Shown here in pieces: positions 10,246 to 22,019 of a stretch of 22,019 nucleotides of DNA (within the stretch, counting starts at the first letter, position 1; every line of letters starts with the position of its first letter). The notes beneath the pieces are model-generated. The model searched no databases and was not told where the DNA came from. It saw only the letters and a list, made by a program, of their open reading frames with translations. The stretch is from a virus: the IMG/VR virus record IMGVR_UViG_3300032342_001230, positions 1 to 22,019 of that record; one strand, written 5' to 3'. Made by a program: the position numbers and the translations under genes.

Positions 10246-11715
10246 ATGAAATTAGGAGACACAAAACTCAATCATAAATATCTCCGTGTGGTCACTACAA
10301 AGACTGGCAAAAAGAGGTATATTTATGAGGAGTCAGAAGAACGCCATCCCACTATACATCAAAAAGCAAGAGAGATGAAGAAACACCCATTCCAAATAGA
10401 GCTTAGTCCTGCCACGATGGCAATCATATCCAAGCTGCAATCTGCTGGGCATGAGTCATATGTAGTGGGCGGAGCTGTGCGTGATTCATTGATGGGTAAG
10501 GCTCCAAAGGACTTTGATATTGTAACTTCCGCACATCCAAAACAGATTCATGAACTATTTGGCATCCCAGGTTCAGTTGGTGCTAAGTTTGCTGTAAATA
10601 TAGTTGACGGTCATGAAGTAGCGACCTATAGAATTGATGATGCGGAAGCTACAAGTGCTAAAGAGACATCTGTTTCTTTGGCCTCGTCACTGAGCGAAGA
10701 TGTAAGGCGTAGAGACTTCACTGTAAATGCTCTTGCCTATGATCCTGTATCTAAACAAGTGTTTGATTTTGTTGGCGGAATAGACGACGCTAAGAATAAA
10801 ATACTCCGATTTGTAGGCGACCCCGATAAAAGAATAAAGCAGGATCCTCTTAGGATGCTCCGTGCTATCCGCTTCGCTAATTCAAAAGGCATGGACATAG
10901 AAATGGAATCGTTCAAGGCGATTCAAAAGAATATGCCGCTCATCAAGAAAGAAGCACCTGAGCGAATATCTGCTGAAATTATGAAGATGTTTGAGTCAAG
11001 AGAGTTGATTGCTGGGCTCACACTTATGCTGGCGACAGGTTTCTTCAAGGAGGTGATACCCGAGTTGCAAGAAGGACACGAGGTAGAACAGAATAAACAT
11101 CATGGCGAGAGCATACTGCTGCACAACATGCTGGCTGCCGATGCGATAAAGAAACCAGATCCAATTCTGAAGCTGGCTCTTCTGCTACATGACGTAGGTA
11201 AGGTTCAAACAAAACAGTTCAACCCAGAAATAAATGACTACAACTTCTTGGGGCATGAAACTGTTGGTGCTAAGATGGCTGTAAAGATAATGAAACGCCT
11301 CAAGTTTTCTACTGACGACATAGCGCGTGTCGATAACATCATTCGTCATCACATGTATTATTTCACAGACGAGACTAAAGACAAAACAATCAAGAAGTTC
11401 ATGGCTTTGCCCGAATTCAAAAATATACTTAGAGCTCGACTTGCTGATAGAAAAGCAAATTTGGCAAAGAAGGGCATTCCGTTTTCATTCAAGAAATTGG
11501 TTAGAAAAATCAGGGTCATTCAGACGACTAAGCAACCTGTTACTGTAAGAGATTTAGCGATAAATGGTCACGACTTGATGGACTTAGGACTTAAGCCGGG
11601 ACCGTTGTTTGGCAAATTTCTTAATAACGCTCTTGAATTAGTGCTTGAACAGCCTGAGCAGAATCAAAAAGAGATTCTATTAGAATTTGCTAGAAGAGAG
11701 TTTATTAATACATAG
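10246..11715 (+). CDS. cca: CCA-adding tRNA nucleotidyltransferase with HD domain
   Basis: 489 residues. The head domain has VVGGAVRD (73-80), the metal-binding DFD (89-91), RRRDFTVNALAYD (154-166) and QDPLRMLRAIRFA (199-211), all diagnostic of the poly(A) polymerase/CCA-adding family. A C-terminal HD domain follows with LLLHDVGK (312-319) and HETVGAKMA (337-345). Such enzymes build or repair the CCA end of tRNA from CTP and ATP; the HD part in cellular relatives has phosphatase/phosphodiesterase activity. Unusual: a 45-residue N-terminal extension with an HKYLR...RYIY module like that in the NUDIX-ART fusion. ATG 10246 follows the adhesin stop by 4 nt with only a weak ribosome site. CCA addition against poly(A) addition cannot be separated by eye. 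Confidence 0.92.
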   Translation: MKLGDTKLNHKYLRVVTTKTGKKRYIYEESEERHPTIHQKAREMKKHPFQIELSPATMAIISKLQSAGHESYVVGGAVRDSLMGKAPKDFDIVTSAHPKQIHELFGIPGSVGAKFAVNIVDGHEVATYRIDDAEATSAKETSVSLASSLSEDVRRRDFTVNALAYDPVSKQVFDFVGGIDDAKNKILRFVGDPDKRIKQDPLRMLRAIRFANSKGMDIEMESFKAIQKNMPLIKKEAPERISAEIMKMFESRELIAGLTLMLATGFFKEVIPELQEGHEVEQNKHHGESILLHNMLAADAIKKPDPILKLALLLHDVGKVQTKQFNPEINDYNFLGHETVGAKMAVKIMKRLKFSTDDIARVDNIIRHHMYYFTDETKDKTIKKFMALPEFKNILRARLADRKANLAKKGIPFSFKKLVRKIRVIQTTKQPVTVRDLAINGHDLMDLGLKPGPLFGKFLNNALELVLEQPEQNQKEILLEFARREFINT

Positions 11716-12370: not shown

Positions 12371-12399
12371 TGTACAATCGCGAAACAATGTGGTATGAT
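12371..12399 (+). promoter_or_regulatory. TGTACA-type promoter P2
   Basis: TGTACA at 12371-12376 and TATGAT at 12394-12399, 17 nt apart. The expected transcription start, about 7 nt past the -10 box, falls at the ATG of the exonuclease gene, so the transcript would be leaderless or nearly so. Confidence 0.8.
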
Positions 12400-16092: not shown

Positions 16093-16133
16093 TATATTAA
16101 TCCCACTCTCACATTCAAAATGGGCTTAATATA
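16093..16133. repeat. Imperfect inverted repeat after the lipoprotein gene
   Basis: TATATTAATCCCA at 16093-16105 pairs with TGGGCTTAATATA at 16121-16133, 12 of 13 positions, around a 15-nt loop. There is no T-run, so it is not a standard intrinsic terminator. Confidence 0.7.
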
Positions 16134-16269
16134 CCCAAACAGACTAACTGCTTTAATTATACTCTAAGTAACAATAGTATTACTGCATGATACACTGTAA
16201 CATCATAGTATAACTCCCCACATGCCGATGTGCCACATGAGAGACTGCTGTAAACACTCACCTCAGACA

Positions 16270-16321
16270 AACTGCTGTGACTAACTGCTGTGACTAACTG
16301 CTGTATACAACTGCTCCGTCA
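16270..16321. repeat. Iteron-like 13-bp tandem repeats
   Basis: Four units start at 16270, 16283, 16296 and 16309. The first two are AACTGCTGTGACT exactly, the third AACTGCTGTATAC, the fourth keeps only AACTGCT. Scattered ACTGCT or TGCTGT words flank them at 16147, 16244 and 16324-16344. Confidence 0.85.
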
Positions 16322-16482
16322 ATATGCTGTGATTGTCTGCTGTAGGCGGGGGCTGGGGGAGAGGGCGCACCTCAACAATAGGGTCGTCCATAGTGTCTCC
16401 ACGGTAAAGACACTACGGTATGTATACTCCGTAGACGTCTACGACAAAATAAAGGGGTCGAATTCCCGGTACGCTACGGTTG

Positions 16483-16704
16483 GCGCTCTGTATGACGTTC
16501 TCTACGTAGTGCTTATCGTACCCTGCGTCTGTGGGAGCGAGATGAAGGCTCTCACGGGCGCTCTTGGTGATTAAATGCACTCGTTCAGAGCGCTCTTAGC
16601 ATGATTTCCGGTTATCCTCACGCCCCGAAGGCGCTGTAAGCGCTCCCATAGCGTCTTCATCAATAACCCATAAAGCGATACCTTGCAGCGCTACCCATAG
16701 CGCT
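16483..16704. repeat. Cluster of GCGCT motifs
   Basis: GCGCT cores at 16483, 16559, 16590, 16631, 16640, 16688 and 16700, several extended to AGCGCT. One is a perfect 10-bp palindrome, AGAGCGCTCT, at 16587-16596. Two pairs share CCCATAGCG context (16645 and 16694). Likely protein-binding sites. Confidence 0.6.
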
Positions 16705-17094
16705 CCATTGAGAAGTCGTTGCAGACGCTGCAGGCTACGAGTTACTTAGAGTCTGTGGCCTATAAACAAGTACATCATACTACATTGGCGTCGTATTGTA
16801 CATCGTCTGTGCGCGGAGAACGCTGACGTATCTGCACGTAACAGAACGTCATCGAATTACAATTCCGTCCATATAACAGAACATGTATTCAATGAATTTG
16901 GGTTCTACCTATTGCAGAGTACGCTGGGCTACGTTGGAGACTCTAGTCGGTATTTTAATACAGCTCGCGGCCGAATTTCACTGTACGGTCAGAGGGCGTT
17001 CTGGGTTTTATCTCACGCCGTTTCCGTGATTGGCTAGCGTATATGGCCGCTGCAGTGTCTCCACAGTTTTTCTCAATATTGGCGAGATCTACGA

Positions 17095-20814: not shown

Positions 20815-21132
20815 ATGAAAATTTCAGAGGTGGCGGTGTCCCTCACTCAGCATTATAGGGCACATAAGAAAGAAAATGGCGGGCACAAAACTGCTCCTAA
20901 AGGCAAGTACGGATTCAAGAGCATTCAGTACAAGGTGGCGGAATCTGATGGAACTATCCACGGACCGTTTCTTGGTCGTGGTGCGGCTCTCACTTCATTC
21001 CGTAATGATGTGAAGCTGAAGGGGAAGCCCACGGCTGGTGTGAAGTTTCTGGTCGAGGACATCTTCCGGCCTAAGGCTAAAGGTCAGGAGCTCAAGGTCG
21101 ACAAGGTAATCACCTTCGAGGTAACTGCATAA
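20815..21132 (+). CDS. Unknown protein
   Basis: 105 residues from ATG 20815, 2 nt after the previous stop. Basic, with alternating strand-like segments (YGFKSIQYKVAESDGTIHGP) and an FEVTA end. TAATG overlap with the next gene. No family recognised. Confidence 0.7.
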   Translation: MKISEVAVSLTQHYRAHKKENGGHKTAPKGKYGFKSIQYKVAESDGTIHGPFLGRGAALTSFRNDVKLKGKPTAGVKFLVEDIFRPKAKGQELKVDKVITFEVTA

Positions 21133-21515
21133 TGGGAAGACGGACAAAGGAAGAGCTAATTGCTTCCAACTATTACGAGTGGCTTGAAACTTGTAACAAG
21201 TTGAGGGAGCAAAAGAAGTCAGGTCCCAAACTGACTCCTGCTGAGAAGGCACTCCTCAAGACTATTCCCTCGCCTGAGGAACCGTACAAGAGTGCTGGAA
21301 AACAGCCCGAGGATGTGCCAGTAAAGAAGAAAAAGCCGGTCATGAAAAAGATCGACTTCGACAAAAGTGCAGTGTGGCCTGAGAAGGCTCAGTCATTCTT
21401 GTGTGCCGTATTCAACGTGCCATTTCGGGATGAGCATTGCATGTTGTTCTGTGAGAGGGATGACTGTCCCTTCCATGGCGTTGGATACTTCCGTTCACAC
21501 GGGGTAAAATTCTAG
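21132..21515 (+). CDS. Protein with C-terminal Cys/His site, unknown
   Basis: 127 residues. Charged, Pro/Lys-rich middle, then HCMLFCERDDCPFHG near 105-120, a Cys/His arrangement likely to bind zinc. TAATG start overlap. No family recognised. Confidence 0.7.
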   Translation: MGRRTKEELIASNYYEWLETCNKLREQKKSGPKLTPAEKALLKTIPSPEEPYKSAGKQPEDVPVKKKKPVMKKIDFDKSAVWPEKAQSFLCAVFNVPFRDEHCMLFCERDDCPFHGVGYFRSHGVKF

Positions 21516-21529
21516 GTTAGAGGTGAAGC

Positions 21530-21751
21530 ATGGCAAAGTATGAGAAGACACGCACGTATGTTGTATCGCAGATCTTTACAGGCGGAAATGGTGTGGTATT
21601 CTCCGCTCCTAAGGGTCGTGCATATGCGGACATTATCCTCCGAACTGGGTCACTCCCAAATCGGATGGTGAAGTCCTTGAAGGTCGGCAAGAAGGTCACC
21701 TTCACTCGGTTCTCAAATCAGTACACAACCTACTTTGCACCGAAGGCGTAA
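21530..21751 (+). CDS. Small beta-rich basic protein, unknown
   Basis: 73 residues from ATG 21530, with AGAGGTG upstream. The pattern of short strands and basic residues (SLKVGKKVTFTRFSNQYTTYF) suggests a small beta barrel, possibly nucleic-acid binding. It is the last protein gene in the window. Confidence 0.7.
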   Translation: MAKYEKTRTYVVSQIFTGGNGVVFSAPKGRAYADIILRTGSLPNRMVKSLKVGKKVTFTRFSNQYTTYFAPKA

Positions 21752-21758
21752 TCATCGG

Positions 21759-21787
21759 TGTACAATCGGCTGTAAATGTAGTATGAT
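21759..21787 (+). promoter_or_regulatory. TGTACA-type promoter P9, before a non-coding stretch
   Basis: TGTACA at 21759-21764 and TATGAT at 21782-21787, 17 nt apart. Unlike the others it has no CGGAGG leader and no open frame downstream; transcription would start near 21794, at the first base-paired element of the structured sequence. Confidence 0.78.
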
Positions 21788-21793
21788 GTACTT

Positions 21794-22019
21794 GTTGGTG
21801 GATAGGAAAAGGTGCTGGCCGATAGCACCGACGGATTAAGCATCGCCCGCTATCCGTTATTCCACCCATCACGGTCACCAGACCGAAGACACGATTGAGT
21901 GGCTAGCCACTAGTCCGACTGCAGGTGGTACCTCGTGAAAGCGAAGGGCCTTTACTGGTGACAAGCTGTGGGTGATGGTGAGCGGCGGGTCCGACGGGAT
22001 TTGAACACCGCTCAGGTAG
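21794..22019 (+). ncRNA. Candidate large structured non-coding RNA, 3' end outside window
   Basis: At least 226 nt without a credible gene, directly behind P9. Complementary segments: GGATAG 21800-21805 with CTATCC 21850-21855 (extendable through G-U pairs to 10 bp); GGTGCT 21811-21816 with AGCACC 21824-21829; CCATCAC 21866-21872 with GTGATGG 21972-21978; GTCACCAG 21874-21881 with CTGGTGAC 21955-21962; CACGA 21890-21894 with TCGTG 21933-21937; palindrome AGTGGCTAGCCACT 21898-21911; TGAGCGG 21979-21985 with CCGCTCA 22008-22014. Helices nest as a long multi-branched arm. Large phage RNAs such as GOLLD and ROOL are a reasonable comparison, but I cannot assign a class. CGACGGGATTTG at 21992-22003 also recalls the 5' region of tmRNA. 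Confidence 0.6.

Follow-up and report, generated by a model that had tools for sequence, protein, structure and literature searches.

At its right-hand end, the window analysed here (the whole of IMG/VR record IMGVR_UViG_3300032342_001230, a 22,019 bp environmental phage fragment) carries a promoter that leads into no recognisable gene, and this raises the question of what kind of transcript such a promoter could serve. Because the window is the entire record, the sequence stops at 22019 and the RNA cannot be extended beyond it. The likeliest reading of this stretch, which we hold with moderate confidence, is a dedicated gene for a small non-coding RNA, situated in the early region of a phage lineage rich in tRNAs.

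Promoter, leader and coding potential at the contig end

A sigma-70-like promoter of the phage early class, TGTACAATCGGCTGTAAATGTAGTATGAT, is present on the plus strand at 21759-21787, where the initial annotation had placed it, with a -35 element TGTACA (21759-21764), a 17-nt spacer and a -10 element TATGAT (21782-21787); its architecture is that of eight other sites in the window. The class was defined as TGTACA-17-TATAAT, or in fuller form as TGTACAAT-N15-TATRAT. With at most one mismatch the window holds eight such sites (seven plus, one minus), against none in 30 first-order shuffles; with at most two mismatches it holds nine. Behind six plus-strand sites (5042, 12977, 17095, 17372, 18283 and 19209), a Shine-Dalgarno site and a gene come within 12-30 nt; another site, at 12371 (plus), marks the beginning of the exonuclease gene region and lacks a clear Shine-Dalgarno site. 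Nearly all good matches to the class, in the window and in the related phage contig G003, reach a ribosome-binding site and gene within ~10-60 nt, and the absence of a gene after the 21759 promoter is therefore an exception. It is not the only one: the initial annotation had described eight like promoters, seven leading into genes and this one not, and while the class is real, the nine sites include a second gene-less promoter which that account had missed, on the minus strand at 16802-16774.

The predicted transcript start lies near 21794-21796, in a 5′ leader, GTACTTGTTGGTGGATAGG (21788-21806, plus), which is a form of the phage early mRNA leader (A/GTACTTATTAAAT..GGAGG) minus its GGAGG Shine-Dalgarno. 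In the 241 kb of the window, G003 and a second relative, G007, there are exactly three copies of the leader motif, GTA[CT]TTGTT-N0-5-ATAGG (window +21788, window -16773, G007 -1412), and a gene-less promoter immediately precedes each of them; the window and G007 units thus have in common the transcript 5′ end GUAYUUGUU...AUAGG. As the motif was read off its own sites before searching, its zero count in shuffles is an unfair test of significance, and what is informative is that the rest of the three records lacks it. Its resemblance to an ordinary early mRNA leader lacking GGAGG means, moreover, that it may reflect promoter and leader design and not RNA function.

Downstream of this leader, the putative non-coding RNA occupies at least 226 nt (21794-22019, plus) and, as reported earlier, runs off the contig, which ends inside it. 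The earlier statement that these nucleotides hold no credible gene is borne out: there is no forward ORF of at least 50 aa in 21794-22019, all three forward frames contain stops, and no Shine-Dalgarno site follows the promoter. Forward-frame codon scores for 17-codon pieces (-0.48 to +0.06) fall mostly with the off-frame controls from neighbouring genes (-0.24, sd 0.20), below those genes read in frame (+0.16, sd 0.14). A frame that begins with GTG at 21968 and stays open as far as the contig end was rejected for want of a good ribosome-binding site and for its non-coding-like codon scores. The G+C content of the stretch is 57%, against 49% in neighbouring genes.

Counterparts in related phages

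Relatives were located via the tRNA nucleotidyltransferase encoded at window 10246-11715. This protein is identical in G001, whose contig ends near the equivalent of window 12977, and is 81% identical in G003 (163 kb) and 75% in G007 (55.6 kb), both of which have the gene order of the window's right half in common with it. Scans of viral contigs with the exact promoter pattern and with the neighbouring proteins found relatives of the site only in G003 and G007, and none were found among genome contigs; a G012 match was rejected as it looks protein-coding on reading, and a promoter-like site at G003:3901 as it lies inside an ORF.

The syntenic anchor is a 127-aa gene (window 21132-21515, plus), which adjoins a gene-less promoter in G007 (50% identity) and lies near one in G003 (45%). 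Between it and the window promoter stands a 73-aa gene (21530-21751, plus), with a relative in G003 (31% identity) and none found in G007. In G007, a class promoter (minus strand, 1441-1413) directly follows the orthologous 127-aa gene, with no gene behind it. It opens a unit of 176 nt (minus, 1412-1237) that finishes in a terminator-like end, AAATAGGGCC...GGCCCTATTTTCTTTTC, with a 10-bp stem and a T-rich tail, called by inspection and not listed by our short-loop scan; a separate promoter, at 1220, serves the next gene. Two early genes of G007, of 127 aa and 103 aa, have an ORF inserted between them (L058 1816-2190) that by eye looks like an HNH-type nuclease.

It is because a relative has this 176-base promoter-plus-terminator unit beside the same neighbour gene that an RNA gene with its own promoter becomes probable, and we regard the G007 unit as the strongest argument in favour of a dedicated RNA gene. 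Beyond the leader, the window and G007 RNA bodies show no alignment above chance (26% of shuffles score as high); at the level of sequence, what is conserved between them is promoter, position and 5′ leader only, and the candidate RNA is probably fast-evolving. In the same area of G003, the 73-aa gene is followed by a terminator-like stem, and the gene-less promoter there points the reverse way; G003 has no plus-strand counterpart of the RNA. The claim of a dedicated RNA gene is thus upheld in part, by the gene-less promoter, the missing Shine-Dalgarno and the G007 counterpart, and weakened by the unaligned bodies. Also counting against it are the mild fold stability, the lack of a plus-strand counterpart in G003 and the lack of a 3′ end within the window.

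The second gene-less promoter (16774-16802, minus) matches the promoter and leader at 21759 over 41 nt (83%). Downstream of it, ~680 nt without a credible gene (16100-16770, minus) are rich in GAGCGC and include tandem 13-nt repeats, GACTAACTGCTGT, at 16266-16304. All three phages have a non-coding region of ~430-680 nt here, opposite the early operon and behind a class promoter: window 16100-16802 minus (promoter -16802), G003:152100-152728 (promoter -152728) and G007:5607-6060 (promoter +5607). GAGCGC occurs five times in the window copy, twice in that of G003 and four times in that of G007, where 0.1-0.2 would be expected, and the alignment of the window copy with that of G007 scores a little better than chance (0.5% of 200 shuffles do as well). 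This locus may be another RNA or an origin-like element. A bolder proposal, which we consider speculative, is that each genome uses its two gene-less promoters to make new phage RNAs of no known class as a coordinated pair, one short (~180-300 nt) after the 127-aa gene and one longer, GAGCGC-rich and on the opposite strand, conserved in position and fast-evolving in sequence.

Folding and comparison with known RNAs

The initial annotation had called this RNA highly structured, which overstates the case. The minimum free energy of the 226-230 nt stretch is -87 kcal/mol, with z of -2.1 to -2.6 against dinucleotide-preserving shuffles (about -2.6 for the annotated RNA); its best 150-nt window (21826) ranks 7th of 585 on both strands, and several coding windows score lower, such that predicted structure by itself would not single out the stretch. 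The 5′ part (21794-21872) folds with z of -3.1 and, by thermodynamic model and by eye, may form a three-way junction (21797-21866, plus) of helices P1 (21797-21802/21861-21866), P2 (21811-21816/21824-21829) and P3 (21830-21836/21852-21858), subject to competing pairings. A possible long arm (21867-21977, plus), seen by eye and by model, would pair 21867-21872 with 21972-21977 and 21874-21881 with 21955-21962, enclosing smaller hairpins, and the folds returned use competing registers for it. The model also predicts a possible terminal hairpin (21979-22014, plus; 21979-21985/22008-22014) containing GACGGGATTTGAAC. When the ends of the stretch were shifted slightly, two nearly equal folds with competing pairings came out. 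Once its terminator is removed, the G007 RNA folds no more stably than shuffles (z -0.65), which also counts against the RNA gene. A minus-strand terminator-like hairpin at 21829-21811 was rejected, the count of such hairpins being within chance expectation.

An Rfam scan of the window and of its end, at the gathering threshold and at relaxed E up to 10, gave nothing credible, in keeping with the earlier view that the RNA fits no recognised class; over this region, then, we found neither a clear ORF nor a known RNA model. The GOLLD, ROOL and OLE covariance models did not match the stretch, a partial RNA as query, at E up to 10. ARAGORN, which a cut-off tmRNA gene would be expected to escape, found no tRNA or tmRNA in the window. 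A nucleotide search of phages and plasmids gave no match, and no sequence relative among annotated phages. The window RNA and G003:14701 have 13 nt in common, AAGCATCGCCCGC; this match was set aside because it is no better than chance when the whole record is considered (BLAST E 7.3), and the RNAs show no further alignment.

Among known systems, the locus resembles the phage-encoded small regulatory RNAs reviewed in PMC12197685 in having its own promoter and no ORF or downstream gene, and in its short G007 counterpart with a terminator-like 3′ end; it differs from them in being a predicted RNA, with no sequence relative among annotated phages. With the large ornate RNAs GOLLD and ROOL (structures in PMC12286853) it has in common a phage association, a non-coding nature, a multi-helix prediction and a tRNA-rich lineage, but it has no Rfam match and its G007 counterpart is only 176 nt. 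Ornate RNAs measure several hundred nucleotides; the cut-off window copy measures at least 226 nt. The short G007 counterpart leaves the suggestion of a large ornate RNA unsupported.

RNase P RNA is a further point of comparison, as a divergent copy lies within the tRNA cluster of G003 (L039 3308-3510, that is G003:15308-15510), matching RF00010 at 52.3 bits (E 2.3e-14; gathering score 100) with the core motifs GAGGAA, GGAUGCAACGCAA and ACAGAA aligned to the model. This is possibly a phage-encoded, reduced RNase P; the window RNA, by contrast, neither matches RF00010 nor aligns with the G003 copy. The cluster itself (G003:11820-29000; L036/L039) contains over 30 tRNA genes with small genes scattered among them, and between tRNA genes it has two long non-coding stretches without Rfam match (L039 1145-1588 and 2400-2719), the first downstream of a class-like promoter site at G003:13120. 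The lineage also encodes the tRNA nucleotidyltransferase named above, whose frame in G005 (L007 4311-6839) runs stop-free into a long C-terminal part, RNA ligase-like by eye; this suggests a fused tRNA-repair protein. A window ORF at 851-1435 reads as a GIY-YIG endonuclease by eye, with no Pfam match at 1e-3; G007 contains several copies similar to it, as is the case with mobile homing genes.

Alternative readings and the proposed early RNA

The most serious alternative, unlikely as we judge it, is that the transcript serves as a long structured 5′ leader, or as a precursor, for something off the contig, be it a protein gene, a cluster of tRNAs or some other processed RNA. The contig does end within the transcript, and the G003:13120 site (two mismatches) leads through ~440 nt of non-coding DNA to a tRNA-Glu in the cluster just described. 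However, the syntenic G007 unit has its terminator-like stem ahead of the next promoter, an early leader in these phages typically measures 25-60 nt, and there are no tRNAs near the site in G003 or G007.

Less likely again is a relic, in which promoter and leader remain after a small early gene was lost or decayed and the DNA downstream is little constrained. The resemblance of the leader to that of an ordinary mRNA minus GGAGG would suit such a history, as would the unconserved RNA bodies, folding only mildly above chance and a gene-variable region from which the 73-aa gene is absent in G007. Yet G007 is also gene-less beside the same gene, with its terminator-like stem intact; the -10 and -35 elements are well kept, and the raised G+C would be odd for decaying DNA.

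That the promoter acts instead on DNA, by way of an R-loop or replication primer, the RNA having no separate role, seems to us improbable. Phage T4 has transcription-dependent origins, and the window's two gene-less promoters have a common start region, the second lying in repeat-rich, GAGCGC-rich, origin-like non-coding DNA; but the GC skew of G003 has no switch at 150-156 kb, and the 21759 region is without repeats or an AT-rich unwinding element. Very improbable is a phage tmRNA 5′ end from ~21971 onward: TCCGACGGGATTTG is one base from the E. coli tmRNA 5′ motif, TTCGACGGGATTTG, but the GACGGGATTTGAAC letters are equally like an antisense tRNA T-arm, neither likeness is backed by a model, the motif falls within a predicted self-contained hairpin, and a truncation-aware Rfam scan of the last 60 nt (tmRNA, RF00023) gave no match, a weak test with only 50 nt of the candidate.

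We propose, therefore, to retain the small, dedicated RNA gene as a working model. The lineage's usual early promoter would drive an RNA whose leader is without a ribosome-binding site; the RNA would be made, the window copy would end soon after the contig edge, and its product would act in trans early in infection, by base-pairing or protein-binding. Such a trans-acting regulatory or decoy function is, we infer, its likeliest role.

The locus thus stands as a plausible, putative small RNA gene and does not argue for a new ornate RNA class. If transcribed, it would be an uncharacterised early non-coding RNA of a phage lineage, itself uncultivated, with tRNA-maintenance genes of its own, and its promoter-plus-leader signature (an early promoter followed by a leader without ribosome-binding site) would offer a means of finding such RNAs.
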